From: Cucumis sativus
Lineage: Eukaryota; Streptophyta; Magnoliopsida; Cucurbitales; Cucurbitaceae
Reading direction: 5' to 3'
DNA: 64,000 nt
NCBI RefSeq assembly: GCF_000004075.3
Contig: NC_026657.2
Coordinates: 10,788,001 to 10,852,000, forward strand
The translations under genes were made by a program, and so were the position numbers. This document shows positions 8,964-64,000 of the stretch, piece by piece (positions within the stretch are counted from its first letter, which is position 1; each line of letters starts with the position of its first letter). The notes below the pieces were generated by a model, which was not told the DNA's origin, did not search any database, and was given only the letters and a program-made list of their open reading frames with translations.

Positions 8964-10294
8964 ATGGCTCCAGGACCTATTTCTCCAATCAAGCAAGGGC
9001 ACATTCAAGATGTGCAAGAACTCAGAAAGTTTGAGCCTAACATTATTCCCGAGAGATTTATCAGGGACATACAAGAGAGACCAGCACCAGCAACACCTTT
9101 AATCTCATCCTCTGACATTCCCACTATTGATTTATCCAAGCTTCTAAAGGGAAACAGAGATGAACTTCTGCAGCTAGCCACTGCCTGCGAGGAATGGGGA
9201 TTTTTTCAGGTAAAAAACTGATTGTTTATTTCCTTTTCAGCAGCTTAAGGTAGGCCGTGAAGACTAATGCCTTGGTTTTCTATTAGGTAATCAATCACGG
9301 AATCGCTCTGAACCTACTAGAAAATATAGAGGGGCAGGCAATGGAATTCTTCAGGCTACCTTTGGAAGAGAAACAAAAGTACGCAATGGCACCAGGGACA
9401 GTTCAAGGATATGGGCAAGCATTTGTGTTCTCAGAGCACCAAAAACTGGATTGGTGTAACATGTTCGCTCTAGGAATTACACCCGAATATTTAAGGAACC
9501 CTCTATTATGGCCAAACAAGCCAGCTAACTTCAGGTTGTTGTTCATGTTTTTCTTTTTCCAATACTGTCACCATTGCATTATCCATCCAGTAGCTTACAA
9601 TTATGCTCCTTTTCTTTTGCAGCAATACTGTGGAGATTTACTCAAAAGAAGTAAGAAAGCTTTGCAAGAATCTATTGAAGTACATAGCTTTAAGCCTTGG
9701 TCTAAAAGAGGACCTATTTGAAGAAGCGTTTGGGGCGGCCGTGCAGGCAGTAAGGATGAATTACTATCCACCGTGTTCAAGACCTGATCTTGTTTTGGGG
9801 TTGAGTCCACACTCCGATGGAAGTGCTTTAACTGTTTTGCAGCAAGGAAAGGGATGCTCAGTTGGGCTCCAAATCCTTAAAGATGACAAGTGGGTTCCTG
9901 TTCAACCGATCCCAAATGCACTTGTGATCAACATTGGCGATACAATGGAGGTAAAAATGAAACTTTGTCTAATACTAGAAATGGTTATCTATCTCATAAT
10001 GGAGACTTAACCTCCTTTCTCATTGTTACATGTATGCAGGTTGTTACAAATGGCAGGTACAAATCCGTCGAGCACAGAGCTGTGACTCACAAACACACTG
10101 ACCGACTTTCCCTCGTCACATTTTATGCTCCTAGCTATGACATAGAGCTTGGTCCAATGCCAGAATTCGTGGACAAAAACAATCCATGCAAGTATAGAAG
10201 ATACAATCATGGAGAATACAGCAAGCACTATGTAGCGAACAAGTTACAGGGAAAGAGAACCCTGGAGTTTGCTAAGATTCCAATAAAAAACTGA
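8964..10294 (+). CDS. 2-oxoglutarate/Fe(II)-dependent dioxygenase, SRG1-like
   Basis: Four exons (8964-9209, 9287-9534, 9623-9950, 10040-10294) with GT-AG borders give 358 aa, the usual length for the plant DOXC class. The N-terminal DIOX_N part includes IPTIDLSKLL and WGFFQVINHG. The catalytic jelly-roll carries MNYYPP and then the iron ligands His228 and Asp230 (SPHSDGS) and His286 (SVEHRAV), with the 2-oxoglutarate-binding Arg296 and Ser298 (RLSLVTF). All essential residues are present. The enzyme should oxidise a small specialised metabolite or hormone in the cytosol using O2 and 2-oxoglutarate. The substrate cannot be told from sequence: relatives include SRG1 and O-demethylase-like proteins. 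The start is chosen because it lies 102 bases after a TATA box and gives the standard N-terminus. Confidence 0.93.
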
Positions 10295-30242: not shown

Positions 30243-30343
<101 letters not shown>

Positions 30344-31430: not shown

Positions 31431-31570
31431 TTTTCAATAATTTCTTGTAAATTGAAAAAAAAAAAAACTATCTTTTTTCCTAATGGTTACTTATAAAAAA
31501 GTTCTAAATTTTTTATTGAATAGGAAATGTTTATTGAATTTTAGTTTAAAAAAAGTTCTAAATTTCTCGC

Positions 31571-32056
31571 CTTATAACCTACTTAAAAATCCTAGTCAAA
31601 GTTTTTTCTAAACAAGTTGTTCACCCTTGTAAGCATAAAATTAAGCAAGGATGTGATCTCAAAAAAATTATACTTGCGTTAACACAATACGAATGCAGAA
31701 GCCATAAAGAAGATACAAACTAAGGATGAACAAAAAGAGGGATACCAACAAAATACCAAGTCAATCCATAAATTCTAGTTGTCACTACACATATCAACTA
31801 ACAAAACAGTTAAATCTAAAAGTTTCAAGGAATTCAAACCTGTTCATCTTTAGAATCCATTAATTTCTGTTTATACAACTCCAACAATCCAGGAACCTGC
31901 TCCTTATGAGGGTTGATCATTTTTTCTATGAAACAGTTTTCAGAAGACTTAAAAAACAAAGAAAAATTGGCGTACTTCTTAATCAAACCCTTTGACAGCA
32001 AAACTTGATAAACATGGCCTCTAGGCAAAAGCCTCTTCTTCAAACTAAGAAGCGTA
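31571..32056 (-). pseudogene. 3' stub of an mTERF gene (tandem duplicate)
   Basis: The minus strand 32043-31834 encodes MKKRLLPRGHVYQVLLSKGL ... LLELYKQKLMDSKDEQV, which matches the last 70 residues of the neighbouring mTERF proteins and nothing upstream. The downstream flank (31571-31830) also matches the flank of the next gene at about 32137-32390, for example GTAAGCATAAAAT followed by CAAGGATGTGATCTC. So a segment of about 480 bp was duplicated locally. Homology stops near 32056, inside the gene body. It is a truncated host gene copy and probably not functional on its own. Confidence 0.8.
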
Positions 32057-32389
32057 ATTTTTATAGCATTTTTACCTTTTTAATGCATCAATAAATTTAT
32101 AATTAAGCAACCATTTTCTTTTTTGTTTCTATTGCCTTGTAACCTACCTTTTACTGAAAACCTAGTCAAAGTTTTTTCTAATTAAAAATTTGTTCACCCT
32201 TGTAAGCATAAAATAAACAAGGATGTGATCTCAAAAAAATTATATTTACGTTAACACAATACGAATGCAGAAGCCGTAAAGGAGATGCAAACCAAGAATG
32301 GACAAAAATAGGGATACCAACTCAATCTACTACACATATCAACTAACAAGACAGTTTAGTTATTAAAATTTCAAGGAGATCGAACCTGT

Positions 32390-33469
32390 TCATCTACTAG
32401 AATCTATTAACTTCTTCTCATACAACTCCAACAATCCAGGAATCTGCTCCTTATGAGGGTTGATGATTTTTTCTATGAAATGCTTTTCAGGAGACTTCAA
32501 CATGAAAGGAAGATTCTGGTGCTTTTTAATCAAACCCTTTGACAGCAAAACTTCATAAACATGGCCTCTAGGCAAAAGCCTCTTCTTCAAACTAAGTTGA
32601 AGTAAAATTGGTCTTTCAGCAAGGAAAGATGATTCGTATTCCATTTTATTGACAAGAAAATCCATTGCATTATTAATCTTATCCACAGAAAATGTCATAC
32701 ACCGTGGATGCTTTCTAAAAGCTACACGGATCTCTTCTTCAGATAATCCCCATTTCCTATAAACTTCAACCTTCTTATCCCATGTAGATTTGGTCATTGA
32801 TCGCAGACAAAAAACAGCATCAACAAAATGCAATTGTTGAGTGTTGAATCCAATTTCCTTAACTCTCTCTACAGTCTCCTTGAATTGGATGGAATTTGTC
32901 AAGAACACTCTAGGCTGGTACTGAAGATATTTTAAAATATTTGAATCCGGCACTCCAATTTGTTTCAGAATTTCAATATTGGGACCAAGACAAATTCGAA
33001 GATCCTTAGAGAGAATACTCACAGAATGTTTTATGGTAGCCAGAGTCTTCTCCTCACTTCCAAGCACGGCTTGAAGGTAATTAAAGGCTGGAATAATTCG
33101 TTCGTTTAAACTTTTTGATAAAACCCAAGGATCGGAACGTAATATTTCGAAAATCTCTGAGGAAGAATGAGCTTTAGATTGAAAAAACAACAATTTGGGC
33201 AACAGGGTTTTCTCGGGGTTAGAAGAAAGAATTGGAGGATACCTGTTGGCAAGGTAAGAGATTTGTGATTCAGAGAATCCATGATTCGCAAGTAAATCAA
33301 TTGCAGCCTTCCCTTTGTTATTGAGCTGAACAGCATTAGAAGGCAACGAAGCAGATTTCGGAGATGATACAATCTCAGAAGAGGTGGATAGGCATGTTGC
33401 GGAAAATCCGTGAGAAGAGACTGAGGATGGAGATCTAAGAAGAAGGAGTCTGCGAAAGAAGTTAGACAT
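32390..33469 (-). CDS. mTERF-domain protein 1 of the cluster
   Basis: A single exon of 359 aa. The N-terminus MSNFFRRLLLLRSPSSVSSH is rich in Arg, Ser and Leu, as expected of a mitochondrial (or plastid) presequence. The body is built from mTERF motifs, about 30-35 residues each, such as NHGFSESQISYLANRYPPIL, LLFFQSKAHSSSEIFEILRS and KWGLSEEEIRVAFRKHP. The C-terminus is LLELYEKKLIDSSR. mTERF proteins bind organellar nucleic acids and affect transcription, splicing or translation. Plant genomes carry tandem clusters like this one. The stop lies four bases before a donor-like ACAG|GTTCGA that all copies share. This is the most diverged of the four intact genes. The exact organelle and target are unknown. 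Confidence 0.92.
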   Translation of the reverse strand: MSNFFRRLLLLRSPSSVSSHGFSATCLSTSSEIVSSPKSASLPSNAVQLNNKGKAAIDLLANHGFSESQISYLANRYPPILSSNPEKTLLPKLLFFQSKAHSSSEIFEILRSDPWVLSKSLNERIIPAFNYLQAVLGSEEKTLATIKHSVSILSKDLRICLGPNIEILKQIGVPDSNILKYLQYQPRVFLTNSIQFKETVERVKEIGFNTQQLHFVDAVFCLRSMTKSTWDKKVEVYRKWGLSEEEIRVAFRKHPRCMTFSVDKINNAMDFLVNKMEYESSFLAERPILLQLSLKKRLLPRGHVYEVLLSKGLIKKHQNLPFMLKSPEKHFIEKIINPHKEQIPGLLELYEKKLIDSSR

Positions 33470-39394: not shown

Positions 39395-40036
39395 GGAGAA
39401 CAGAATAAAACTATAGGAAATTGAGAAATGTGATAGTTAATAGTTGTTGTAAATTGGAGAACGATGACAGTTATTTAACAAAATAAATTGTCACGATTGC
39501 TCTATATGTGACAGGAATAACATGTCGTCATAAGATAAACAATGACAATTTTTTTTAAAAAAAAAACTGTCACGATTGCATTATATTTGACTGGAAAAAA
39601 ATGTTGTCAATGGCAAAACAATGACATTTAATGTTATCGAAAAACTGTCACGATTGCACAATCGTTGACTGGAAAAAAATGTCGCCAATAACTAAACAAT
39701 GACATTTTTACAAAAAAAAACTGTCGCGAAAAACATATTCATGACAATTAATACATGTCACGATAATAGAATTCGTGACAATTATTTAACTGTCGTTAAT
39801 AAAGAAATGATGATAGTTATTGAATGTCATAAAATAAATTATGACAGTTATTGAATGTCGTTGAATGTTGATTAACGACATTTATTTCATGTCATAAAAC
39901 AACCTATTGCGACAGTTTTCAAAAACTGTCGTCGAAGGCCTTTTCATGACTCCCGCTTCTATGATTGAAAATAACTGTCGCGAAATCCGTTCACGACAGT
40001 AAATAACTGTCGTCGTAGCCCACTTTTGTACTAGTG
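39395..40036 (-). mobile_element. CACTA (En/Spm) transposon terminus with subterminal repeats
   Basis: The right edge reads TTTTGTACTAGTG, which in reverse is the classic CACTAGTACAAAA end. Inside it, some fifteen short words of the type AACTGTCGCGA, TGACAGTTAT and TGTCACGATTGC occur in both orientations across 640 bases, as expected of subterminal transposase-binding repeats. No transposase was recognised and the opposite end was not found in the window, so this is a partial or internally replaced element. A possible 3-bp target copy (TGT) follows the end. Confidence 0.85.
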
Positions 40037-40760: not shown

Positions 40761-41663
40761 TCAGTTTTGATCGAAGGTGGGTTGAAGTTGCTTACACAAA
40801 CCAAAATAAGTGAAATAAACAAGACGGTCCTTGGCTCCAGTTCTATGAATCTTTGTTTGAGTGCAGAAGTGTTTGAGTTGTGTGAGCTTCAAACGTCCAA
40901 GAAAATTTCCCAATAACAAGAACAACCAATTGATTTTATTATCATTTCCTGCAGGTATGATTGGCTCTACACATTTTTCTTTATTGCAAAACTTGCAGTT
41001 TAGTAGAGTAGGGTTTGTCCAACAATTTGGAGCTCTATCATGCATGTTACATTTTTCTCTTTCAATGAACTTTATCATCTCTTCAAACTTACTCATTAAG
41101 TCATACTCTATCTCATCCTTTCTTTTACATCTTTTGCATTTCACTTCCCCTTTGATTGTGCGTATGTTGTTTGCTTGAAGATACTCGAGTTTGTGGATTA
41201 TGGCTCCCTGCTCTGTCGACCACGGATACGGTGGCTCGATCCTACTAGTGTCTGCTTGTTTTCTAGTTCGTTTTGGTCTCGGGAGTTCTTCGTTTGGTTC
41301 GTTTTGAGTTCGTTTTGTTGGCCGGATTTCTTCGTCTGCTTCGTTTTGAGTTTGTTGTGTTGACGGTGGTTGTAGCCTATCAGGTGGCAGAAGATCAGGA
41401 GATTGCGATGGTAGAAGGAGAGAGGATGGAGGGTCGGCTGCAGTTGAAGGAAGGGGAGAAAACTCTAGTGGTCGATGTTGTGGAGGCGGAGGATGAGGAC
41501 GAGGAGGGTGCAACGACAAATGGAGTGATAGTGGTGGAGTAAGAGACTGCGTTGGCAAACGGAGAGAGAGTAAAGTCTGAGGTGAGGGAGGAGGAGACTG
41601 AAACGGAGGACGGAGAGAGAGCCATTGGGAAATGCATTGGTCACCACTTTCATCATTCTCCAT
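40761..41663 (-). CDS. DUF7086-type plant protein with paired CxxC motifs
   Basis: A single exon of 300 aa. The first 120 residues are Pro/Ser/Leu-rich and low complexity. A basic stretch (PTKRTQNEPNEELPRPKRTR) could be a nuclear signal. The conserved C-terminal half has PYPWSTEQGAIIHKLEYL, then VKCKRCKRKDEIEYDL, MHDRAPNCW, LLNCKFCNKEKC, INWLFLLLGNFLG, LKHFCTQTKIHRTGAKDRL and YLGLCKQL-like YFGLCKQLQP. These motifs identify the plant family of unknown function DUF7086. Two CxxC pairs suggest a zinc-binding fold. A TATA box at 41723-41731 supports this start. The biochemical role is unknown. It sits alone between transposon debris and the mTERF array. Confidence 0.85.
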   Translation of the reverse strand: MENDESGDQCISQWLSLRPPFQSPPPSPQTLLSLRLPTQSLTPPLSLHLSLHPPRPHPPPPQHRPLEFSPLPSTAADPPSSLLLPSQSPDLLPPDRLQPPSTQQTQNEADEEIRPTKRTQNEPNEELPRPKRTRKQADTSRIEPPYPWSTEQGAIIHKLEYLQANNIRTIKGEVKCKRCKRKDEIEYDLMSKFEEMIKFIEREKCNMHDRAPNCWTNPTLLNCKFCNKEKCVEPIIPAGNDNKINWLFLLLGNFLGRLKLTQLKHFCTQTKIHRTGAKDRLVYFTYFGLCKQLQPTFDQN

Positions 41664-42820: not shown

Positions 42821-43110
42821 ACTTTTATGAAAAACAAATAAACTAAAAAATTCAAACCTTTTAGAAATTCTAATTCAAGTTAGGAGAAGTGGGGGATAAA
42901 ATTAAGTTGTGCAAAAAAAAAAAAAAAACGATTAAGTACTGCCCTTGATTTTGACTAAAATATAATAGTATATTTCATCTCTTTATTCCTTCTAATTTAT
43001 TATTTTTCACTTGTTTTCTTCTTCTTCCTTGTTCTTTTCTTTTCTTTTTGTTCAGCCATTCTTTTCTTCCATCTCTTTTTTGACAAAAATCAACCATGTT
43101 TCTTGAGAAG
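42821..43110 (-). repeat. Duplicated mTERF 3' flank, copy 1
   Basis: ATGAAAAACAAATAAACTAA, ATTCAAACCTTTTAGAAATT and AAGTTAGGAGAAGTGG, then a CTT/TTCT-rich stretch and AAATCAACCATGTTTCTTG, recur at about 52690-52980 and, in shorter form, at 49870-50090. All copies have the same orientation relative to the array. It is non-coding. Confidence 0.7.
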
Positions 43111-43796: not shown

Positions 43797-44912
43797 TCAA
43801 GGAGATCGAACCTGTTCATCTTCTAAATCCATTAATTTCTGTTCATACAACTCCAACAACCCAGGAATCTGCTCCTTATGAGGGCTGATGTATTTTTCTA
43901 TGAAACGCTTTTCAGAAGAGTTAAACAACGTAGTAAAATTCGCGTGCTTCTTAACCAAACCCTTTGACACCAAAGCTTGATAAACGTAGCCTCTAGGAAT
44001 AATCCTCTTCTTCAAACTAAGTGAAATTAAAAGTGGTCTTCTAGCAACAAAAAATGGTTCACATCCAATTTTGTTGACAAAAAAACCCATTACATCGTTA
44101 ATCTTATCCTCAGAAGCTCTCATGCCCCATGGATTCTTTCTAAAAGAAAAACGGATCTCTTCTTCAGACAATCCCCATTTCCTATAAACTTCTAACTTCT
44201 TATCCCATGTAGATTTGGTCATTGATCGCAGAGCAAAAACAGCAACAACAAATTGCAATCGTTGAGGGTTGAATCCCATTTCCGTAACTCTCTCTACAGC
44301 TTCCTTGAATCGGATGGAACTTGTCAAGAACATTTTAGGCTGCCGCTGAAGATAACTTGAAATATTTGAATCCGGCACTCCAATTTGTTTCAGAATTTCA
44401 ATATTGGGACCAACTGAAGTTCGAAGATCCCAACCGAGAATACCCGGAAAGCGCTTTATAGCAGTGAGAGTCTTCTCCTCACTTCCAAGCACGGCTTGAA
44501 TGTAATCAAAGGATGGAATAATTCGTTTGTTTAAACTTCCTGTTAAAACACAAGGAACTGAACATACGAATTTGACAATTTCTGGGGAAGAAAGACCTTT
44601 AGATTGAAAAAACAACAATTTGGGCGATAGGATTTTCTCGGTGTTCATAGAAAAAATTTTAGGATACCTCTTGGCAAGGTCGGAGATTTGTGATTCAGAG
44701 AATCCATGATTCGCAAGTAACCCAATCACAGCCTTCGAATTATTATTGAGCTGAACAGGATTAGAAGGCAATGAAGCAGATTTCGGAGATGATACAATCT
44801 CAGAAGAGGTGCATAAGTATCTGAGAGATTTCAATGGACTGTCGGAAAATCCGTGAGAAAAAGCTGAGGATGGAGATCTAAGTAGAAGGATTGTGCGAAA
44901 CACGTTAGACAT
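43797..44912 (-). CDS. mTERF-domain protein 2 of the cluster
   Basis: A single exon of 371 aa. The N-terminus MSNVFRTILLLRSPSSAFSH is a likely mitochondrial presequence. Successive mTERF motifs include NHGFSESQISDLAKRYPKIF, LLFFQSKGLSSPEIVKFVCS, RFPGILGWDLRTSVGPNIEI and LKQIGVPDSNISSYLQRQPK. The end is LEDEQVRSP. The frame runs through a donor-like GAACAG|GTTCGA and stops a few codons later, so a spliced longer form is possible. The middle third is almost identical to gene 4 (50260-51375) while the first 60 residues differ. Likely role: organellar nucleic-acid binding. Target unknown. Confidence 0.92.
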   Translation of the reverse strand: MSNVFRTILLLRSPSSAFSHGFSDSPLKSLRYLCTSSEIVSSPKSASLPSNPVQLNNNSKAVIGLLANHGFSESQISDLAKRYPKIFSMNTEKILSPKLLFFQSKGLSSPEIVKFVCSVPCVLTGSLNKRIIPSFDYIQAVLGSEEKTLTAIKRFPGILGWDLRTSVGPNIEILKQIGVPDSNISSYLQRQPKMFLTSSIRFKEAVERVTEMGFNPQRLQFVVAVFALRSMTKSTWDKKLEVYRKWGLSEEEIRFSFRKNPWGMRASEDKINDVMGFFVNKIGCEPFFVARRPLLISLSLKKRIIPRGYVYQALVSKGLVKKHANFTTLFNSSEKRFIEKYISPHKEQIPGLLELYEQKLMDLEDEQVRSP

Positions 44913-45180: not shown

Positions 45181-45315
45181 TTTTTATTTTATATTTTAAA
45201 AGTAACACTGTTTCAAAAAACTAATAATTTAGTTATTCTTATCAAATTTTTATTTTATATTTTAAAAGTAACACTGTTTCAAAAAACTAATAATTTAGTT
45301 ATTCTTATCAAATTT
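45181..45315. repeat. Near-perfect 66-bp tandem duplication
   Basis: TTTTATATTTTAAAAGTAAC ... AGTTATTCTTATCAAATTTT occurs twice head to tail with period 66 and no mismatch seen, in the upstream region of mTERF gene 2. Perfect identity implies a recent event. Confidence 0.9.
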
Positions 45316-46636
45316 TAAAAAACTTTATGAAGGATTTATCTCGGTCTCTCTCGACTGAGTGCATCACCAAGATAGTGTACCTTTTATTAAAAATTTGAAA
45401 ATGACATAATTGCAAAATAACATAATTGCTTTTTTTAAACTCGAGAACATCTCGAAGCAACTTTAGCCTGATGTCATATTACATAAATTTCTTAGCTTAG
45501 AACGGACAACTTTGGTTCATGATCAATCACAAATTTGACCGGAGAGGAGTTAACCTCAATTTCTAAATCATTTAAGTTACATGATTTCAACATATATATA
45601 TTATTTTTGTCATTCTCATTAGAAGTTCTTTAGCACACCACACTGAAAGTCGTTTAAATTGTAGGAGCAAAATCGTTCACAGTTGAAAATGAGCAAAATG
45701 TTTGGAATTTAGTGTTTTCGGATAATATATAACATTCGAAACACCATGGGTATTTTGGTCATTTATATATCACTTTGTTTTAAAAATTTTAATAAAAGAC
45801 GCACTATCTCAGTGTCGCAATTGGTCGAGAGAGATCGAGAAATTTCTTTCAAATTTGAAAAGAATCTCAAGGTAGATCTCGATCTAAAATTATGCTATTT
45901 TTAAAATATAAAACTAAAAAAGTGCTGATTTTGTCAATTTCCTATATATATATATTCCTTTTAAAATTATCCCCCTCTTTTGAAATCTCAGTAAAAAAAG
46001 TTCAAAAATAATGTTCTTTTTTTAAAAAAAAAACTATGATAAGAAGCATATACCTAAAAACGATAAGACATATAAGAGTGAAGCTAAAACTATCTAAATG
46101 AAGAATTTCTTTACCACTTCACTAGCATATATTATTTATTAACTTCAAATACTTAAATGGGTCTACCACACATTTCATTAACTAAAATTTCATAAATCTG
46201 TGAAAGAAACTCAAATTTTAAATATAAAAACTACATCATCAAAATAGTTATATAACGTTAAAAACCTTATAAAGCTTAAATTAAACAAGGAAGGACATCA
46301 AAGAATTGAAATTAGTCATATGATGCTAAAAGCCTTATGAGCATAAATGAAATGTGAAGTTGGGTTAAAAAGACCCAACTGATGGAAGTACCAAATTTGC
46401 CATCATAAAGAAGCTGAAATAATGCAAACTCCAACAATGTTGAGCAAAGGGACAATATCCAAATATGAGGCAAAGCGGTTCTAAAGAAGTCATTATTTAG
46501 TTAGCAATCTAAAAACTGATTATGTAGAAACACATTCTCTTTAACATATATAAATTTTAGTTGCTACTTTGTCACTACACATTTCAACTAATAACAAACA
46601 GTTTAATTATTAACATTTCAAGAACATCGAACCTGT
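45316..46636. other. Intergenic between mTERF genes 2 and 3
   Basis: It contains copies of flanks also seen elsewhere in the array. Examples are TTTTGGTCATTT and AAGAATCTCAA (about 45740-45880), related to about 52150-52320, and AAACCTTATAAAGCTTAAAT to CAAAGGGACAATATCC (46260-46460), related to 43510-43740. No coding sequence. Confidence 0.6.
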
Positions 46637-47731
46637 TCATCTTCTAGACTCCACTAATTTCTGCTCATACAACTCCAACAATCCAGGAATCTGCTCCTTA
46701 TGAAGGTTGATGTATTTTTCTATGAAACGCTTTTCAGAAGAGCAAAACAACGAAGTAAAATTCGCGTTTTTAATCAATCCCTTTGACACCAAAACTTGAT
46801 AAACATGGCCTCTAGGCAAAAGCCTCTTCTTCATACTAAGTGAAACTAAGATTGGTCTTGTAGCAGCGAAAGATGATTTGCATCCCATTTTGTTGACAAA
46901 AAAATCCATTGCACCATTAATCTTATCCTCAGAACCCATCATACACCATGGATGCCTTCTAAAAGCAGAACAGATCTGTTCTTCAGACAATCCCCATTTC
47001 CTATAAACTTCAACCTTCTTATCCCATGTAGATTTGGTCATTGCTCGCAGAGCAAAAACAGCAACAAGAAACTGCAATTGTTGACGGTTGAATCCCATTT
47101 CCGTAACTCTCTCTACTATCTCCTTGAATCGGATGGGGTTTATCAAGAAAGTTCTAGGCTGGTACTGAAGATATTTTAAAATATTTGAATCGGGCACTCC
47201 AATTTGTTTCAGAATTTCAATATTGGGACCAACTGAAATTCGAAGATCCTTCACGAGAACACCCGCAAAGCGCTTTATGGCATTGAGAGTCTTCTCCTCA
47301 GTTCCAAGCACGGCTTGAATATAATCAAAGGCTGGAATAATTCGTTTGTTTAAACTTCCTGTAAAAAAATTAGGAACTGTACATACTATTTTGACAACCT
47401 CTGGGGAAGAAAGCCCTTTAGATTGAAGAAACAACAATTTGGGCAATAGAATTTTCTCGGGGTTCATAGAAAGAATTCTAGGAAACCTCATGGCAAGGTC
47501 AGAGATTTGTGATTGAGAGAATCCCTGATTCTCAAGTAACGCAATTAGAGCCTTCCCATTATTCTCGAGCTGAACAGCATTAGAAGACAACGAAGCAGAT
47601 TTGGGAGATGATACAATCTCAGAAGAGGTGGATAAGTATCTGAGAGATTTGAACGGACTTTGGGAAAATCCGTGAGAAAAGAGTGAGGATGGAGATCTAA
47701 GTAGAAGGATTGTGCGAAAGAAGTTAGACAT
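46637..47731 (-). CDS. mTERF-domain protein 3 of the cluster
   Basis: A single exon of 364 aa. The presequence-like start is MSNFFRTILLLRSPSSLFSH. mTERF motifs include NQGFSQSQISDLAMRFPRIL, LLFLQSKGLSSPEVVKIVCT, RFAGVLVKDLRISVGPNIEI and KWGLSEEQICSAFRRHPWCM. The C-terminus is LLELYEQKLVESRR, with the stop just ahead of the shared donor-like ACAG|GTTCGA. The first 60 residues and the leader are nearly identical to gene 4, but the central part follows its own lineage. Upstream is a duplicated leader with GC-rich patches. Predicted organelle protein. Confidence 0.92.
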   Translation of the reverse strand: MSNFFRTILLLRSPSSLFSHGFSQSPFKSLRYLSTSSEIVSSPKSASLSSNAVQLENNGKALIALLENQGFSQSQISDLAMRFPRILSMNPEKILLPKLLFLQSKGLSSPEVVKIVCTVPNFFTGSLNKRIIPAFDYIQAVLGTEEKTLNAIKRFAGVLVKDLRISVGPNIEILKQIGVPDSNILKYLQYQPRTFLINPIRFKEIVERVTEMGFNRQQLQFLVAVFALRAMTKSTWDKKVEVYRKWGLSEEQICSAFRRHPWCMMGSEDKINGAMDFFVNKMGCKSSFAATRPILVSLSMKKRLLPRGHVYQVLVSKGLIKNANFTSLFCSSEKRFIEKYINLHKEQIPGLLELYEQKLVESRR

Positions 47732-49429
47732 GAGTGTAAGAAGTGGGAGGAGAAGGAAGACAGACCTGTTGGTTCCTTGTTGAGAAGAAGAATGGGAGAA
47801 ACTAGCAATGCCTCACAAGAGGATGAAGCTATGAGAGAAGAGAAAAGAAAAATTGGCGACGGCGGGGTATCGGCGATCGGCAGAGTGGGAGAGTGAGAGA
47901 GTGAGAGAGTGAGAGAGAACAAAGAAAATGAGAAAATGAAGGAAGGAAGGGGTTTAGGGTTTTTGAAGGGAAATGGTCGAAAGTAGATTTTTTTAAAACC
48001 AACCCGTTTCTGAATACTCGATAGAAAAAAACAAAAGACAAAGTTGAAGTCTAATGGGAAAGAAAGTTTTGGACACCAAATTTTAAAAGGAAGAGTTTTG
48101 GGACAAATGTACATGTAGATGTTTAAATTACCCTTTAGTTTTAAAAAAAAACCTCTAAAATATTGAACGCAATTTCTTTCTCATGCAACACATACTATTC
48201 CACGCTGGTGAACTCTCACAGGTGACTCCATTTAAAATTTGGTCTCCAAAACTCTAGTCCAAACCAGCTACCATCTAGAGTTGTAAATGGTCAAAAACCA
48301 AACCATGTGACTTTAACTGAGGTTTGAAGGAAAATCTCTGTGCTAAATCAGTGTATTTAATGATGTTTTGAGTTTAATGGAGAATGGACTTGAGTTTTGA
48401 GTTCTCTCAGCTGGAATGAAGAATCAAAACTTAACAAATTGTTCATTTTCTTAAAAAAAAATCCATCATTAAGAAAAAAACCACACTGATAAAGTTGAAA
48501 AAATCTTGAAATGAGGCAAATAAAAGTTGAAATAACTAAGAAAGAAAAGTTTTTGAAACAACAATTAGATTGTTAAAATTGAGATTCAAATTATAATTTA
48601 TACACCACAAGTATATACATGAGATTCGACCGCTTTGGACTTCTAAGATCAACATGCTACCGAACATGGATTAAAGAAGTGTTTGTTCACAAAAATCCGA
48701 ATAAGGTACAACCATCTTTCTTACAAGCATTTCATCAAACACATTATGGGCGTAACTTGGAATTTTCCGTTGTTCGTCACATTACAACCAACTAAATACA
48801 CGAATTAAGGATTTCAGTATATGAAGAAACCAATTATGCAACACCCATTAACTAACTGTTAAAATTAATTGCAATAACAAAACAAAAATTCTAAAATACA
48901 AGAAAAGAAAAGAAGAAAAAATAACCTGGTGTCAATTATTGAAAGAGTGGCCGGAAGTTGAAGGTGTGTGTGAACGCTGGGTGCTAAGTCACTGGGCGTG
49001 ATGGATGGGTCACCATGGGCGTTCGGGTGGTAGGGGCTTCATGGAGACTTTCTTTGTTCCTGAAAGATGGAAAGTGAAAAACTAGAGGAGGAGTTGTTCT
49101 CTTTTTTTTAAAAAAAAAACGTCTTCAAGAAATGTTCGGATGTGAAAAATATTTTGAAAATTCGCCTACTTTTCATAAAAATTCTTGACATTTGCAAAAC
49201 GTAAAGAAAATACATATTATTTGACGTTTTTAAATGTCAAGAAAAGTTCTAGCATTAAATTTTTTTCAAAAGATTACCCATATCCGCCTTTTCATAAAAT
49301 CAGTGATGTTATTGACCTTTTCATAAAATTTGGACATTTTACCTTTGAAATCACGAATTTTTTAATATTTTATTTCTAAAAACGGTCAAATATTTAAATC
49401 ATAAACATTAAGAGAGTCTATTTTTTTCA
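47732..49429. other. Leader of mTERF gene 3 and intergenic DNA
   Basis: The first 230 bases upstream of gene 3 match those upstream of genes 2 and 4, including AAGAAGTGGGAGGAGAAGGA, GTTGAGAAGAAGAATGGGAG and GGCATCGGCGAT-type GC patches. An open minus-strand frame across this leader overlaps the gene start in another frame and is not a gene. The rest is AT-rich with nothing recognised. Confidence 0.55.
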
Positions 49430-50100
49430 AGTAGTATTGAAATTTTAAAACAAAAGCTCACAATCTCGATGTAGAGAGAAATTATGTAAAAACGATTTTT
49501 TAAAATTTGAGAAGAATCGCAATGTCGAGGGACAAAATAGATCGAGATAAACAAATTTAGTAGCTTTTGAAAATATATGTAAAAGTAAAAGTGTGCTACT
49601 CCTCACAAATTTTCCCAAAATTTTTCCATTTATTTTTAAGAGTTATCATAATGTAGTTTTGAAAAACATTATAAAAACAATTAAGTTAAAATAAATTATT
49701 TAAAATAACAAAGAAATATTTCATATTATTTTATCAGTTACGTCTCTTATTCTTTGTTAATAATTGCAATTAACCTCTTTTTTAATTAAGATAATTAGAC
49801 ATTCTAAAATTAACAAAGGAAAATCTCTTTCTTCTCTCCATCCATCTTCATCTTCTCTTCCTCTCCCTCTTTTATGAAAAACAAATAAACTAAACAATTC
49901 AAACCTTTTACAAAGCATAACCCTTCACAATATAGTATATTTCCTCGTCACAACGCTTGTTCTTCTCTCTTCCCTCTTTATTCTTTTTCTCTCGTTCTCT
50001 TCTTCTTCCCTGCTGTTTTCCCTTCTTTTCTTTTCTCTCTCATATTTTATTGCGTTTGAAATTGACCAAAATCTACCCAAAAAAATATATGATTGTTGGT
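49430..50100 (-). repeat. Duplicated mTERF 3' flank, copy 2
   Basis: AATTTGAGAAGAATCGCAAT, AACAAATTTA, AAGAGTTATCA, AAATTATTTAAAATAACAAA and ATGAAAAACAAATAAACTAA recur in the same order at about 52205-52980. The block lies directly 3' of mTERF gene 4. It marks the duplication unit of the array. Confidence 0.7.
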
Positions 50101-50259: not shown

Positions 50260-51375
50260 TCAAGGAGATCGAACCTGTTCATCTTCTAAATCCATTAATT
50301 TCTCTTTATACAACTCCAACAATTCAGGAATCTGCTCCTTATGAGGGTTGATGAATTTGTCTATGAAAAGGTTTGCAGAAGAGTTAAAAAACAAAGCAAA
50401 ATGCGCGTACTTCTTAATCAAACACTTTGACACCAAAACTTGATAAACGTAGCCTCTAGGCAAAATCCTCTTCTTCAAACTATATGAAACTAAAGTTGGT
50501 GTTCTAGCAACCAAAAATGGTTCACATCCCATTTTGTTGACAAAAAAATCCATTGCACCATTAATCTTATCCTCAGAAGCACTCATACAACGTGGATTTT
50601 TTCTAAAAGCTAAACGGATCTCTTCTTCAGACAATCCCCATTTCCTATAACCTTCAACCTTCTCATCCCATGTAGATTTGGTCATTGATCGCAGAGCAAA
50701 AACAGCAACAACAAACTGCAATCGTTGAGGGTTGAATCCCATTTCCGTAACTCTCTCTACAGCCTTCTTGAATCGGATGGAACTTGTTAAGAACATTTTA
50801 GGCTGCCGCTGAAGATAACTTGAAATATTTGAATCCGGCACTCCAATTTGTTTCAGAATTTCAATATTGGGACCAACTGAAGTTCGAAGATCCCAACCGA
50901 GAATACCCGGAAAGCGCTTTATAGCAGTGAGAGTCTTCTCCTCACTTCCAAGCACGGCTTGAATGTAATCAAAGGATGGAATAATTCGTTTGTTTAAACT
51001 TCCTGTTAAAACACAGGGAACTGAACATACTAATTTGACAATCTCTGGGGAAGAAAGACCTTTAGATTGAAAAAACAACAATTTGGGCGATAGGATTTTC
51101 TCGGGGTTCATAGAAATAATTTGAGGATACCTCTTGGCAAGGTCAGAGATTTGTGATTCAGAGAATCCATGATTCGCAAGTAACCCAATTACAGCCTTCG
51201 AATTATTATTGAGCTGAACAGCATTAGAAGGCAACGAAGCAGATTTGGGAGATGATACAATCTCAGAAGAGGTGGATAAGTATCTGAGAGATTTGAACGG
51301 ACTTTGGGAAAATCCGTGAGAAAAGAGTGAGGATGGAGATCTAAGTAGAAGGATTGTGCGAAAGAAGTTAGACAT
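50260..51375 (-). CDS. mTERF-domain protein 4 of the cluster (mosaic)
   Basis: A single exon of 371 aa. Residues 1 to about 48 (MSNFFRTILLLRSPSSLFSH to SSPKSASL) and the leader are almost those of gene 3. From about residue 50, with VQLNNNSKAVIGLLANHGFS, through RFPGILGWDLRTSVGPNIEI to GFNPQRLQFVVAVFALRSMT, it is nearly the same as gene 2. The last 100 residues are more its own (ANLFIDKFINPHKEQIPELL) but end LEDEQVRSP like gene 2. The change of affinity falls near 51210-51245. This pattern suggests unequal crossing-over or gene conversion. Predicted organelle-targeted nucleic-acid-binding protein. Target unknown. Confidence 0.92.
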   Translation of the reverse strand: MSNFFRTILLLRSPSSLFSHGFSQSPFKSLRYLSTSSEIVSSPKSASLPSNAVQLNNNSKAVIGLLANHGFSESQISDLAKRYPQIISMNPEKILSPKLLFFQSKGLSSPEIVKLVCSVPCVLTGSLNKRIIPSFDYIQAVLGSEEKTLTAIKRFPGILGWDLRTSVGPNIEILKQIGVPDSNISSYLQRQPKMFLTSSIRFKKAVERVTEMGFNPQRLQFVVAVFALRSMTKSTWDEKVEGYRKWGLSEEEIRLAFRKNPRCMSASEDKINGAMDFFVNKMGCEPFLVARTPTLVSYSLKKRILPRGYVYQVLVSKCLIKKYAHFALFFNSSANLFIDKFINPHKEQIPELLELYKEKLMDLEDEQVRSP

Positions 51376-52204
51376 GAGTGTAAGAAGTGGGAGGAGAAGG
51401 AAGACAGACCTGTTGGTTCCTTGTTGAGAAGAAGAATGGGAGAAACTAGCAATGCCTCACAAGAGGATGAAGCTATGAGAGAACAGAATAGAAAAATGGG
51501 GGGCGGCGGGGCATCGGCGATGGGCGGAGTGGGAGACAGAGAGAGGGTTAGGGTTTTTGAAGGGAAATGGTCGAAAATAACTTTCTGAAAACTAATTAAT
51601 AAAGGTGAAGCTAAAACTAGCAAAGTACACAGACTTTTTCTCTTTAATGAAATTAGCGTTGTACACTCTTCATGAATCTTACACCAACATTCATCTTGAT
51701 TCCCTCTCAAATCAATTTGGTGCAATATCAAGACTTTGTAAAGCACAATCATTATTAAAATTATTTCCAAAATTATTTTTAAAAAAACATATGTGAAACA
51801 CAAACAAATTTGGAAGAAATTTTATAAATCTTGACTGAGATTATTCATCTCCTCGAATCCATATTGATAAAATTGTCGAGTTCATCAAAGGAAACCACTT
51901 ACGTTAACTTAAAATATAGTTTAACATCTAATTAGAACCGAAAACCAACTACATATTTTTCCATCCACCTCAGATTTTACCTAAACTATGGAATTGTTCA
52001 AAATAAATCACATTTACATATTTAAGCTTGAGAATGACTATGTTAAATTTTGGAAGCAAAAATCAGACAAATCTCTTCGATTTTGGGAGCAAACATGCAA
52101 CATCTCATCCCGAATGAGTCCAGGATTTAAGGTTTTGAGAATATCTAATGTTTAAGCTTTCGAGAGTATTTTGGTCATTTGAGAATTTCATTTATTTTGA
52201 AATT
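51376..52204. other. Leader of mTERF gene 4 and intergenic DNA
   Basis: The 180 bases upstream of gene 4 match the gene 3 leader. Beyond about 51600 similarity is lost. No gene is seen. Confidence 0.5.
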
Positions 52205-52980
52205 TTAATATTTTCAATAAATAAAAAACTCACAATCCCATTGACATTCTAGACCTAGATGGATCAAAAAATTATTTTAACACAATTTTTTTCAATTTGA
52301 GAAGAATCTCAATGTCGAGGTTAGCTTAATAAACCTAGAAAAACAAATTTACATTTTTTTAAGTGTACTATTTTTGAAATGTAAAACTAAATGTGTGGTA
52401 GTTCCCGACATTTTTCAATTTAATTTCTTTTAAGAGTTATCAAAATTATTTGAAAAAGATTATAAAAACAATAAGTTCAAATAAATTATTTAAAATGACA
52501 AATAAATAGTTCATATTATTTCACTTTTTAACCACTCCTAAACTAATTACAATTATATTCTTAAACTTCGGATTTGATGAATTATTCCTCTTATATTTTA
52601 TCAAATATTTTAAAATTAACAAATCAAAATTTCATCTCAAATCTCTTTCTACTCCCTCAACCTTTCCTCTCGCATCTTCCTCTCCTCTGTTTTTTATGAA
52701 AAACAAATAAACTAAAAAATTCAAACCTTTTACAAATTCTAATTCAAGTTAGGTGAAGTGGAAGATAAAATTAAGTTTTGGAGAAAAAAAAATGATTCAA
52801 TATTGCCATAAAATTCCAAAGACACTTAGTTATTTTCTCTTCATTCTTTATTCTTCTTCTCTTGTTTTCTTCTTCTTCCTAGTTGTTTTCCTACTTTTTG
52901 TTCTCTTTTCTTTCAATCTTCATTTTCTTTTATCTCTCTCATATTTTATTGTGTTTGAAATCAACCATGTTTCTTAGGGA
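52205..52980 (-). repeat. Orphan mTERF 3' flank, copy 3
   Basis: This block matches 49430-50100 and 42821-43110 but has no mTERF gene on its 5' side, where one would be expected at about 53.1 kb and beyond. It probably marks a lost array member or the array edge. It is non-coding. Confidence 0.65.
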
Positions 52981-53818: not shown

Positions 53819-55397
53819 TCATATTGCAAATATATAACGCATGAACTTCTTCATCTTCTCCTTCTCCAAACTAATCCAAACATTAACACTACCTCTACTC
53901 CTCCCTCCGCCGCTCTCTCCGCCGTTCGCAGGAGAAAGTAACAACACAAACTCATCATTCCCGTTGGCCACTGGACTAACATGAACCGGTTTTCCAAACC
54001 CAAAATCTAATTCCTTAAACGGCAACTTCCACCAAGCCGAAACATAAAAACTCTTCCCATTACAAGTCGCCGGAATCCCTCTATAAACCTCAAGCCAATC
54101 AATCGCCGATCTCACATACTCCTCCCCCGATACCCTCTCAATCCCTTCCTTCACCCTCTCCACACAAAACGAAAACGGCCGTTCCACCACTTCCGCCGCA
54201 CGCGCCGCCGCAAACCCAGTAACCACAGCGTTTCCAACGAAACCATCTGGGAGAACCGGACGGATCTTGGACCGGACATCAACCGCAAACAAAACCATGG
54301 AGGTTTCGCCTGGGCGGTCCGAGTAGACCGCGCGGGTCCTGGCGCGCCACAGCTGGGACAGAATGGCTTCGAAGGTGGAGCAGGGGATGGGAGCAGCGGC
54401 GTTCTTGAGAGTGGCGATGGTGGAGGGGGTGAAGGGAATGAGGGAGTGGAGGTGGTTGGAGGCGGACATGGGCGGCGATGGGGTAGGGGAGGGTTTATTG
54501 AGGGCGGTGAAGGAGGAGGGGAGTTGTTTTAGGGTTGGGGAAAATGGGGTGTACTCTTGGTGGGGATGTGAAATAAGAGGAGGATTTCGAGCTCTGAAAA
54601 TTGTTCTGTCGTTAAAAATGGTTTGGGGTTTCAGGTCGCCGCCGCCGCGACATATTGATGCGAGGTTTTGGAACATCTCCGCCGCGGATTTGCCGTCCAA
54701 AACGCCGTGGTTTGTTACCATGCCGATTGCATACCCTCCGCACACAAACTCCGTAACCTGTACCATGTGTACAATTACAAACAAGTTTTATGGGTTGAAG
54801 ATAAATATCAATATTTTGCTTCAAGAAAAATGTGATATAATGTACCATCTATCTATGTTTTGTCACCATCCATTACTTTCTTGTATACAGAAATCCAATG
54901 AGTGAAGTGAATATTATTCTAATCAAATCAATTTCATTCAACAGTTTTTCGCCACATACCTGAACAGTAAACAGAGCTCTTTCATGGAGGTTTGTGTGGA
55001 GTCCAGGCCGATGAACAAACCGACCAAAACTCGGATTCGGAAGCGACAAATCCCCAAGATCCCTCATCCTCACCTTCGATTTCGCATTCACAAACACAAC
55101 ACCGGCATTATTACAAGCCAGCTCCAACCGCCCGCTCTCCCGGTTCGTCTGAAATCGACCGGCCAAGAAATAGTACGGAACCAAAAGAATCGCCAACGCT
55201 CTCTTCACAATCCTCGACATCTCCGCCGCCGAACCGTCCTCAAAGAAGTACACGGTTTCCACAGTGAAGGCCACCGCCACATCGATGTTCGACAGGAAGA
55301 TCGTCTCCTCCGGCGTTGGATTGGATGGAGAGAGGAGTTTCTGAGGCTCGTCTTTGAGTATGTCTTCGTCGGATATGGAGAGAGGAGAGACGGCCAT
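53819..55397 (-). CDS. BAHD-family acyltransferase
   Basis: Two exons, 55397-54960 and 54757-53819, join after FTVQ to VTEFVCGGYAIG, giving 458 aa, normal for the family. The catalytic HxxxD motif is HGVLD (His163, Asp167) in TNHGVLDGKSAAEMF. The structural motif near the C-terminus is DFGFG (397-401), a variant of DFGWG. The enzyme transfers an acyl group from CoA to an alcohol or amine in the cytosol. The N-terminal LSNIDVAVAFTVETVYFF and overall pattern recall the omega-hydroxyacid feruloyltransferase (HHT) side of the family, but the substrate is an inference. The single intron at this place is the usual BAHD position. The second exon is GC-rich compared with its neighbours. Confidence 0.93.
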
Positions 55398-60102: not shown

Positions 60103-61593
60103 GTACAACTCTTCTTCTTTACGACTATATATGTACGAGTATTTTCATTTTATACTGTATTAACTACTCCTATACATGATTTTCGTTTTTTTTTTTTTTT
60201 CCTTTTCATGTTTGTTGTTGTTGTTGTTGTTATTATTATTATTATTATTCTCTATCGTAATTCGATTTTGTTTATGGATTGAACAAACTCCAGGGATCCT
60301 CTTTTGTTTTTGTGAGTTTTTTTCGTTGTTACAATTACAATATATGGTTTCGCTTCTTTAAGGAAGAAATAACTTCATGTCGGGTTTTTGAATTTTCTTC
60401 GATTTTTCTTCTTAGTGTTAACCACAGCTTTTTAGGTGTTTTCTTCATTTGATTAACTTTAATTTTCTTAGATCACATTGAGATAATCTCTCAGAACGTA
60501 ATTTCTCGAGTATTTTTCGCTTGTTCTAACCGAGTTGTTTGTTTACTGGTTCTATCTGTGATTAGTGGTTTTTTTTTTATATTGAAGTTTCGAGTGGAGC
60601 TGCTTTTTAAGTCTGTTAATGTGGGGACGTTTGGTTGTTTCAATTCTTTTTTTTTTTTTTTTGGGTTCAAAATATGGATCTGGATATGATTGCGGTTAAT
60701 TGAGTTTGGAGTACTATTGCTCTTTTCTTCCTTTACTTGCAAGGGATTTTTCTTTCTTTCTTTTTTTAAAAGAAAAAATGTATGTATTTATCTTTCTATA
60801 ATGTCTTCTTTGTTTAATTTGGAAGATTTAGAACGCTGTTTTTGTATCTTATATGATTGGTTGAATATGATTTGTAATGGTAAGTGTTGACAGGATATTT
60901 TCTGTGTTCTGAAATATCAACTTGAGAATTCGATCTGGGTTTTTCTTTGCGTTGGGTTTAGCATTTGGAATATGTTCCTTGCAAATACTTTTTTAATTAG
61001 TTGGGGCGGATCTATTTGGTTGCTAATGAACGTTTTATGTTTGTGTTTGGATGCTCACTCTTCTCTTAAAGGCCAGACGAGAGTGAATAATTTACTTGCT
61101 GTACATAATGTATAGGTTGGAAAGTTCTTGGCTTCATTCGTAGTAAATGTAGACTGTTCGTTATATTTGTTAAAATTCGTTCACTACATTTGTTAAAATT
61201 CAAGATGAGTTGTGGGGAAACTTATGGTAACTGTACTTGTACCATCAATATCTTTATTCATTACATCGAGGTTTTTATCCTCTGGTATTAACATGCGATT
61301 TTTAATTGGTTTTTCTGGTGTGTTTTCAGGAAAAGTAGACGTTTTTATTTTCATATTTTGCCTATAATTGTAAAATATGCTTGTTAATTGCATAATACGA
61401 TTATTTTTGGAAATCAAACTTTTAATGTTCCTGAGAAGGATACCTGAAATTCTAATGCAAATGCATGATTGAAGATTAACTCTTTTAATACTTGATAAAA
61501 TCTTGCAAGGTTAGTGCTTCTTGATATGATAACTTTAGAATTAGTTAAAAAGATATGCTCAAGTGGTTGTCATGTTGTGAATGGCTTTTGCAG
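60103..61593 (+). other. Long 5'-UTR intron of the SANT gene
   Basis: The donor ACTAAG|GTACAAC and the acceptor CTTTTGCAG|ATGGATG bound a T-rich intron of about 1.49 kb. The acceptor falls directly on the start codon. Long leader introns in plants often raise expression. Confidence 0.6.
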
Positions 61594-64000
61594 ATGGATG
61601 TAGTTCAAATAAAAAACCAAGATACTTGCTGCGAAGATATGTCACCCGACCAGTCTGTTTCTCCACAGATTTCTAGTACATGGGCTGACTTTAGAGAACC
61701 TGAGGCTCATCCTCGAATTGGGGATGAATACCAGGCAATAATTCCCCCTCTTGTGGTCAAATCAGATGATCTTGGGCTTTTGAAAAGTGAAGCTGGTGGT
61801 CTGCGTGATATTTACGTTGGATTTCCTGCACCAGAAGCAGGTATAGATGATGTTGAGATTCTGAAACAGAAGCAACATAATGGGAATGATAATATTGTTC
61901 TGGCATCAAACCAAAGTGAACATGCAGCCGTGTCTGAAATGCAGGATGTTCCAGAAGCTCGAGAGGTTAAATCATCCGATGCCATGGCAAATAAGGATTT
62001 GGAATATGCAACAAATTTTCTGTTGCAACAAGAAATGAAGATGAAAATGAAAGAAAGCAATGCTGACAATGACCAATGGTTGGCTTCTGATTCCTTGAAT
62101 GATTCGTCGAGTGACATAGAAATGGCCAGTCTTCTCCTTGGATTATACATTTTTGGGAAGAACCTCATTCAGGTGAAGAAATTTGTTGGAACTAAACAGA
62201 TGGGGGATATTCTCTCATTTTATTATGGGAAATTTTACGGATCCGACAAATACCGTAGATGGACAGCATGTCGTAAAGCAAGAGGCAAGAGATGTATATG
62301 TGGACAGAAGTTATTTACTGGCTGGAGGCAACAGGAGTTGTCATCTCGCTTGCTTTCCTCATTATCAGAGGAAAAGAAAAATACCGTAGTGGAGGTAGAG
62401 TTCAATTTTTACTTCATGCTAGATTATATAACAACCGATCCTCACATTGGCAACCTCATCAATGTAAAAGAGTTCAGAAATTTATAGATTACCCGCAGTG
62501 AAACTACCACATGCTTTTGTACATAGTTATTTAGAGTCAGCTGAAGTTGTCCTGCCCACATTTTCCTAAAGAATGCAGAACTAACACCCCGATTTTTCAG
62601 CGCAAAGATAGACACATTACATTTCCATGTAGTTTGCTAACTTGAACACTTAGATCCATGTTCCTATCGAAGCAAGACACTATATATTGTTGTTCTTCTT
62701 CAGTTTCACTAACATTTTGTATACTCTCAGCCTCAATAACTTATTCACTGTTGTGAAGTATATTGTGCCAATATTTTTTCTTTAACATTTTGACTTATGG
62801 TCAAAGAGATTGTTCAGTCGGCGAAGGGCTTTATCTCGATTTTCTATCCTGCATTTATTACCTAATTCCTATCATTAGCGATAGCTGATGCATTTTGTTT
62901 CCCTAGATCTCAAGTTTTGATGTATTGACAGGTTTGTAGGGGATTTATTGAGGGTAAAATACTGCTGGAGGAATATGTATTCTCTTTGAAAGCTACAGTT
63001 GGGTTGAATGCCCTTGTAGAGGCCGTTGGAATTGGTAAAGGAAAACAAGATCTTACCAGCACCACCATGGATCCAATTAAGTCTAATCATGCTCATCCTG
63101 CCCGGCCGGAAATACCAGTTGGTAAAGCATGTTCGACACTTACACCTGTTGAAATTGTCAAATTTCTTACTGGAGATTTCAGGTTGAGCAAAGCACGATC
63201 AAGTGATCTCTTTTGGGAAGCTGTTTGGCCTCGTTTGTTAGCAAAAGGGTGGCATTCCGAGCAGGCTAACAATTATGGTAGTACTGTTGGTTTAAAGCAT
63301 GCTTTGGTATTCCTGATCCCTGGTGTGAAAAAATATTGCCGAAGAAAACAAGTTAAGGGAGAACATTACTTTGATTCAGTCAGTGATGTCCTAAATAAGG
63401 TTGCTTCAGACCCTGGGCTTCTTGAACTTGACAATGTTGTAGAAAAACAGTGCAGTGACAAGGAAGAGTGCGAGTTGAGTGGCAAAATAAAACAGGACCA
63501 GGAAGATTTCCCTAGTCAGCAACGTTATTGCTATCTTAAGCCACGAACTCCCGTTCATATTATGGATACAATCAAATTTATGGTTGTTGATACAAGTTTG
63601 GCTGATGGAAGCACATTCAAGATCCGTGAACTACAAAGTTTGCCAGTTGAGATTACAAATAAATATGTTTCCAAAAGTCATTCCGAAGAGGATGAGCAAA
63701 TTTCTTCAGAGATTTCAATGGATGATACTCATTCTGATAATACTATGCATTTTGATAAGGAAGTAAGTGACACTTCCAAAGGCACCAGAATCAGCTTGGA
63801 CAAAAAAGTTTATATTGATGAGGAAACTTGTGTAGGAAATTCTTCAAATAAAGAGTCTTCAAATGATGGCCTAGATGGCCTACATTCTACCAGTATAAGC
63901 ATGGAAGTTCAGGAGGATAAACAATCTTTATTGGACAACACACAACAAAGTGATATTGTTCTGGACCAAATGAGCGAGGGAAAACCCAAATCTGAAATTG
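61594..64000 (+). CDS. SANT/Myb-like chromatin protein (partial, runs off window)
   Basis: Coding exon 1 is 61594-62394 (267 codons, ending VVE|GT). Exon 2 begins at 62932 (VCRGFIEGKILLEEYV) and stays open to the window end. The protein starts MDVVQIKNQDTCCEDMSPDQ. A conserved block IEMASLLLGLYIFGKNLIQV ... DILSFYYGKFYGSDKYRRW (about residues 175-215) is the SANT/Myb-like fold. It is followed by a basic Cys-containing stretch (RKARGKRCICGQKLFTGWRQ), then PVEIVKFLTGDFRLSKARSS and LFWEAVWPRLLAKGWHSEQ. This matches the plant family often labelled 'arginine-glutamic acid dipeptide repeats protein', whose Arabidopsis members (SANT1-4) are reported partners of histone deacetylase HDA6. So a nuclear, transcription-repressing role is likely. 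The C-terminal part lies outside. Confidence 0.88.

Follow-up and report, generated by a model that had tools for sequence, protein, structure and literature searches.

In mTERF repeats, a conserved proline caps the central helix and forms the S-loop (PMC4705650). In human MTERF1, the S-loop prolines line the major groove of the DNA, direct base contacts are made by R162, R202, R251, R350 and R387, and in the last segment W383 stands in for the proline (PMC4705650). A recognition code has been published for the PPR proteins; among the open-access literature matches listed, titles and openings of abstracts mention neither such a code for mTERF proteins nor gene conversion among mTERF paralogues.

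Tandem clusters of these genes are on record. On Arabidopsis chromosome 1, nine MTERF genes lie in tandem within 70 kb (PMC3471360). In cereals, the RFL-mTERF clade is clustered and has been named for its restorer-PPR-like evolution (PMC7759465, PMC10226603, PMC8431178), and the restorer loci of barley (Rfm3) and rye are linked to mTERF genes (PMC7759465, PMC10226603, PMC8431178, PMC7154926). In another gene family, the RGA08 NBS-LRR cluster of banana, sequence exchange produces chimeric genes within a fast-evolving cluster (PMC3017797).

We have analysed a window of 64,000 nucleotides from Cucumis sativus (contig NC_026657.2, positions 10,788,001 to 10,852,000); all coordinates below are those of this window. 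It carries, within 20 kb, four intact mTERF genes and one 5′-truncated copy, which are arranged head to tail on the minus strand. Like the Arabidopsis cluster, it is a tandem array of mTERF genes, but its copies show traces of sequence exchange, whereas the accessible part of PMC3471360 describes no such exchange for Arabidopsis. Tandem clustering is also the trait that it has in common with the RFL-mTERF genes and, by analogy with them, a restorer-like role of the array is a possibility; a tblastn search of the window with an approximate PPR consensus, used without a positive control, returned no PPR match. The array resembles banana RGA08 in having chimeric genes made by exchange in a fast-evolving cluster, and differs from it in gene family; at RGA08, mTERF is represented by pseudogenes and remnants within a cluster of R genes (PMC3017797). 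With human MTERF1 (PDB 3n7q) it shares repeats having an S-loop proline, at a weak sequence match (E = 0.011 only); the target of MTERF1 is double-stranded mtDNA.

The mTERF array and its surroundings

All four intact proteins matched PF02536 (mTERF) in a Pfam profile search, scoring 121–136 bits against a cut-off of 23.1. The members of the array are plant-type mTERF genes, belonging to a family of organelle nucleic-acid-binding proteins, and their products are probably imported into mitochondria (or plastids). The first-pass annotation had spoken of four genes. All four are intact, but the array has an additional 5′-truncated copy (Table 1). The latter lies immediately downstream of gene 1, within a direct repeat of ∼480 bp (31569–32049, 82% identical to 32134–32596).

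Over codons 48–358, the four copies have accumulated ∼255 substitutions. In the absence of constraint, these should have produced ∼12 stops; none was seen (P = 6e-6), which indicates that the genes are kept. Both length changes within codons 1–358 (six residues absent in gene 1 and one in gene 3) are in frame. Near codon 362, a one-base difference gives genes 1 and 3 a different and shorter C-terminus than that of genes 2 and 4, which end alike.

Several other features were observed in the window. Spacer repeats of 70–78% identity (49479–49914 with 52269–52736, and 42823–43071 with 52692–52915) flank gene 4 and occur downstream of gene 2; they are perhaps remnants of the duplication unit of the array or of a transposon. 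Upstream of gene 2, at 45181–45316, an AT-rich unit of 66 bp is perfectly duplicated in tandem. At 39483–39707, a unit of ∼78 bp is repeated in three imperfect tandem copies, and the 98 bp at 30244–30341, which match their own reverse complement perfectly, may be a simple repeat. A BAHD-type acyltransferase (PF02458) extends over two ORFs at 53819–55397, probably as two exons or as a broken gene. The remaining features are a 300-aa ORF that has a DUF7086 domain and is rich in proline in its N-terminal part (40761–41663), 2OG-Fe(II) dioxygenase pieces (9341–10294), a cullin neddylation-domain piece (14554–14919), a retrotransposon integrase/polymerase remnant (18207–18830) and an ORF with DUF7952 (61555–62487).

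Table 1. Genes of the array, tracts of gene 4 and S-loop blocks of its repeats, in window coordinates
Feature	Coordinates	Strand	Description
Gene 1	32390..33469	-	mTERF, 359 aa; most diverged among the intact copies; Pfam match on 32402-33469
Gene 2	43797..44912	-	mTERF, 371 aa; ORF and Pfam
Gene 3	46637..47731	-	mTERF, 364 aa; ORF and Pfam
Gene 4	50260..51375	-	mosaic mTERF gene, 371 aa, uninterrupted ORF; Pfam mTERF 132.8 bits
5′-truncated mTERF copy	31825..32049	-	corresponds to the last ~74 codons
Tract A	51235..51483	-	108 bp of leader and codons 1-47; identical to gene 3 (47591-47839); positions -108 to 140
Partner switch, gene 3 to gene 2	51231..51235		from variable-site lists
Tract B	50665..51231	-	~570 bp, gene-2-like, 96-100% identical to gene 2
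Core of tract B	50789..51015	-	227 bp identical to gene 2 (44326-44552); positions 360 to 586; codons 121-195
Segment C	50263..50664	-	own 3′ third of gene 4, 87-89% to genes 3 and 2; repeats 6-8
S-loop block (-2 to +5), repeat 1	51109..51132	-	Pro84; register analysis
S-loop block, repeat 2	51001..51024	-	Pro120; register analysis
S-loop block, repeat 3	50893..50916	-	codon 156, Pro in genes 4 and 2 only; register analysis
S-loop block, repeat 4	50785..50808	-	Pro192; register analysis
S-loop block, repeat 6	50578..50601	-	Pro261; register analysis
S-loop block, repeat 7	50482..50505	-	Pro293; register analysis
S-loop block, repeat 8	50380..50403	-	codon 327, Pro only in gene 1; register analysis

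Three histories within gene 4

It had been claimed that the leader and the first ∼48 codons of gene 4 follow gene 3, that its centre follows gene 2 and that the partners switch at about 51210–51245. We observed all three. On a scale where 0 is the A of the start codon of gene 4 (window coordinate = 51375 minus position), genes 3 and 4 differ at none of the 249 positions of tract A, and gene 2 differs from each of them at 17. Downstream (141 to 359) genes 3 and 4 differ at 23 of 219 positions. The gene-3-like 5′ end also stops on its upstream side, a point that the earlier description had missed: from −163 to −109 the two genes differ at 10 of 55 positions (82% identity; Fisher p = 1.8e-8 versus tract A). 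In three consecutive pieces of the region 141 to 710, differences between genes 2 and 4 number 9/219, 0/227 and 4/124; the middle piece, the core of tract B, begins at +1 of the S-loop of repeat 2 and ends within that of repeat 4. At positions 711 to 1112, 45 of 402 sites differ between genes 4 and 2, and 53 of 399 between genes 4 and 3. Gene 4 also has bases of its own, both in between the tracts and outside them (positions 359, 587 and 609, and 16 others in segment C). The upper 95% bound on divergence inside the two identical tracts is 1.2–1.3%.

The limits of the switch are the last site shared with gene 3 only (51235) and the first site shared with gene 2 only (51231), and it is bracketed by sites with a two-against-two pattern at 51247 and 51201. 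A search of the + strand of the window for the two strings offered as diagnostic of the partners gave exactly two occurrences of each: GAATTATTATTGAGC in gene 2 (44737) and gene 4 (51200), and GATTTGGGAGATG in gene 3 (47598) and gene 4 (51242). When identity was plotted in 50-bp windows, as the first-pass annotation had proposed, genes 3 and 4 stayed at 100% between about −87 and +137 and fell off after that, and genes 2 and 4 were at 94–100% from about +137 to about +710. Both partners and the switch of the supposed two-part mosaic are therefore recovered, but the gene has three histories, its 3′ third following neither neighbour closely.

As predicted from these tracts, the gene 4 protein consists of the presequence of gene 3, gene-2-like repeats 1–5 and its own repeats 6–8, which bears out the claim that nucleic-acid-binding repeats have been shuffled; the gene 4 and gene 2 proteins are identical over residues 116–203. 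The targeting sequence, which was also said to be shuffled, is so at the DNA level, but the effect is probably small, the presequences of genes 2, 3 and 4 being nearly alike (five amino-acid differences between genes 4 and 2 in codons 1–47).

Recombination tests, which the first-pass annotation had called for, were run on the 1294 columns that are gap-free in all four genes (gapped columns dropped), 312 of which are variable. The longest concordant runs comprise 43 variable sites for genes 3 and 4 and 47 for genes 2 and 4, each at a permutation p of 0.00005, the floor of 20,000 column shuffles. In a 3SEQ-like scan of 24 triplets, the two lowest p values (0.00005 and 0.00015) both have gene 4 as the child of genes 2 and 3. 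There are 46 two-against-two sites, of which 32 group genes 1 and 3 against genes 2 and 4, seven group genes 1 and 2 against genes 3 and 4, and seven group genes 1 and 4 against genes 2 and 3. Partners switch 14 times along these sites versus a null mean of 21.6 (p = 0.0024, shuffling). Because 32 of the 46 pair gene 2 with gene 4, these two would seem to be sisters along most of their length, with tract A as the foreign piece. The scan also gave a weak signal with gene 2 as the child, for a gene-3-like patch at 972 to 1068 (about 43844–43940; p = 0.0036, uncorrected for the 24 triplets), so the tract map is to be taken as a minimum and further exchange in the array is possible.

Probable gene conversion and competing explanations

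We consider it very probable that gene 4 is a mosaic in a tandem mTERF array, patched by interlocus gene conversions. Identity tracts with both ends inside homologous sequence, by which interlocus conversion is recognised, were found in tract A and in the core of tract B; as both are closed on two sides, gene conversion is favoured over unequal crossing-over as the probable molecular process. At least two recent conversions and probably an older third would have patched the gene. One, of ∼250 bp (leader and presequence), would have taken place between genes 3 and 4, and another, of ∼230 bp, between genes 2 and 4, nested in an older gene-2-like stretch of ∼570 bp. The core of tract B looks younger and nested in an older exchange because it is identical to gene 2 and its surroundings are less so, with p values from the difference counts of only 0.0015 against 141 to 359 and 0.015 against 587 to 710. 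Gene 4 may have been the recipient of the exchanged tracts. The sites of tract A (nine unique to gene 2, five common to genes 3 and 4, none unique to gene 3 or gene 4, and 29 unique to gene 1) are in our judgement compatible with either donor, and gene 4 donating to genes 2 and 3 explains the same sites.

The first-pass annotation had offered unequal crossing-over alongside gene conversion, and only the latter fits well. One recombination within misaligned copies would give a hybrid with gene 3 upstream and gene 2 downstream, in keeping with the gene-3-like 5′ part, the gene-2-like centre and the head-to-tail order of the genes, and the spacer repeats on both sides of gene 4 (70% over 485 bp) could be its residue. 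A single crossover, however, predicts flanks that continue the parents. The likeness to gene 3 ends at −108, that to gene 2 weakens past +710, and neither parent is continued in the flanks of gene 4 outside the ∼1.4-kb gene unit; a simple unequal crossover is thus disfavoured, and we regard it as improbable. Still less probable is an assembly chimera, in which reads from near-identical copies were misjoined: tandem genes of such similarity are known to be prone to misassembly, but about four separate joins would be required within 1.4 kb, and bases found only in gene 4 sit between and beyond the tracts. Pure constraint, by which the leader, presequence and central repeats would keep their likeness without exchange, was rejected and has next to no chance of being right, for although genes 2 and 3, too, are most conserved in the leader and presequence (93% identity in tract A), the identity that is specific to one pair extends to the leader and to silent sites (0/36 differences for genes 3 and 4 versus 4.5/36 for genes 2 and 4 in codons 1–47; 0/53 for genes 2 and 4 versus 5/52 for genes 3 and 4 in codons 121–195), so protein constraint is not its cause.

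Paralogue differences cluster around the S-loop proline

An mTERF repeat has ∼33 aa with a capping S-loop proline, and the anchors in the array are spaced 32–36 residues apart. Proline is present at codons 84, 120, 192, 261 and 293 in all four copies, at 156 in two and at 327 in one; at the presumed repeat-5 position, 227, none of the four copies has it. We aligned the seven repeats on codons 84, 120, 156, 192, 261, 293 and 327 and counted the amino-acid differences at each register. The values were highest at +1 (0.79), −6 (0.60), +4 (0.52), and +5 and −2 (0.50 each), the mean being 0.28. The max-over-offsets p was 0.0006 with the seven anchors, 0.0026 with the repeat-5 anchor included and 0.0046 with the five strict prolines only. 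The amino-acid differences of the paralogues are thus concentrated at set registers about the S-loop proline, a result that is well supported, within four genes only. Between genes 4 and 2, one of 20 positions at −2, +1, +4 and +5 differs in repeats 1–5, and six of 12 in repeats 6–8.

We compared these registers with the base contacts of human MTERF1. In the weak match (E = 0.011), prolines 69, 106 and 147 of the 3n7q chain are the counterparts of plant positions 120, 156 and 192. A single arginine triple in the aligned part of the chain fits the spacing of R162, R202 and R251, and its members stand at −2, +1 and +9 relative to the nearest proline, these being the three prolines of the match; we assume that they are those of the S-loops. 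With W383 in the place of the proline, R387 falls at +4. Three of the four base-reading arginines that could be placed are therefore at variable registers (−2, +1 and +4), R350 lying unplaced beyond the end of the alignment. At +9, the register of R251, variability among the paralogues is not clearly raised (0.36 versus the mean of 0.28). As the match between the plant proteins and MTERF1 is weak, we treat the coincidence of arginines and registers as a lead.

Tests for selection at the S-loop registers

Over codons 48–358, omega is 1.55 (p = 0.016 versus 1). By segment it is 0.57 (p = 0.28) in codons 1–47, 1.36 (p = 0.20) in codons 48–237 and 1.79 (p = 0.04) in codons 238–358. The likelihood-ratio statistic of M2a versus M1a over codons 48–358 is 31, a value reached in none of 79 simulations under M1a; it is 15 in each of two parts of these codons on the supported tree, and 9–12 on other trees for codons 238–358. 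We did not take this naive result at face value, much of it being absorbed by multi-base changes and faster sites. At equal parameter number, M1a+MNM (lnL −2337.4) is slightly better than M2a (−2339.5), and the statistic is 13.0 with multi-base changes (p = 0.0015), 6.8 with a fast neutral class alone (p = 0.009) and 4.3 with both (p = 0.038).

Diversifying (positive) selection as the driver of the register differences is moderately supported by these tests, at p = 0.0015 or 0.04 depending on the controls and in four genes. It is quite possible, though we would put it somewhat below even, that the clustering instead reflects relaxed constraint on an exposed loop, or a hotspot of mutation there, and not diversifying selection for new binding specificity. 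Silent differences are also raised at −2, +1 and +4 (p = 0.005) and when +5 is added (p = 0.02), the selection test weakens to p = 0.038 with faster sites and multi-base changes, and the register codons have a pairwise pN/pS of just 1.18–1.63. Of six such comparisons only one is significant (p = 0.004), in which all six pairs, not independent of each other, are pooled and offset +5 is counted in. Over the whole block from −2 to +5, however, silent differences are not raised (p = 0.23), whereas amino-acid differences are (p = 0.0001), and the fast class retains an omega of about 2.3 under both controls, which argues against this alternative.

Implications for mTERF recognition

The mosaic structure of gene 4 is in itself essentially ordinary for a plant tandem array. 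It is a natural block swap of repeats, and the combination may change the choice of organelle nucleic acid to which the protein binds. The clustering by register is the more interesting feature, and the variable registers may be read-out positions. We tentatively propose, as a reading with a lesser though real chance of being correct, that the array generates new binding specificities. The S-loop positions −2, +1 and +4 (and +5 and −6) would form a base-reading code like the PPR code positions; diversifying selection, perhaps in an arms race with mitochondrial male-sterility genes, would change the residues at these positions, and gene conversion would reshuffle the blocks of repeats in which they lie. 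If this is true, gene 4 would carry a combination (repeats 2–4 of gene 2 with its own repeats 6–8) that is present in no other copy in the window. The array supplies concrete candidate positions for an mTERF code, three of these registers being those that hold base-reading arginines in human MTERF1.
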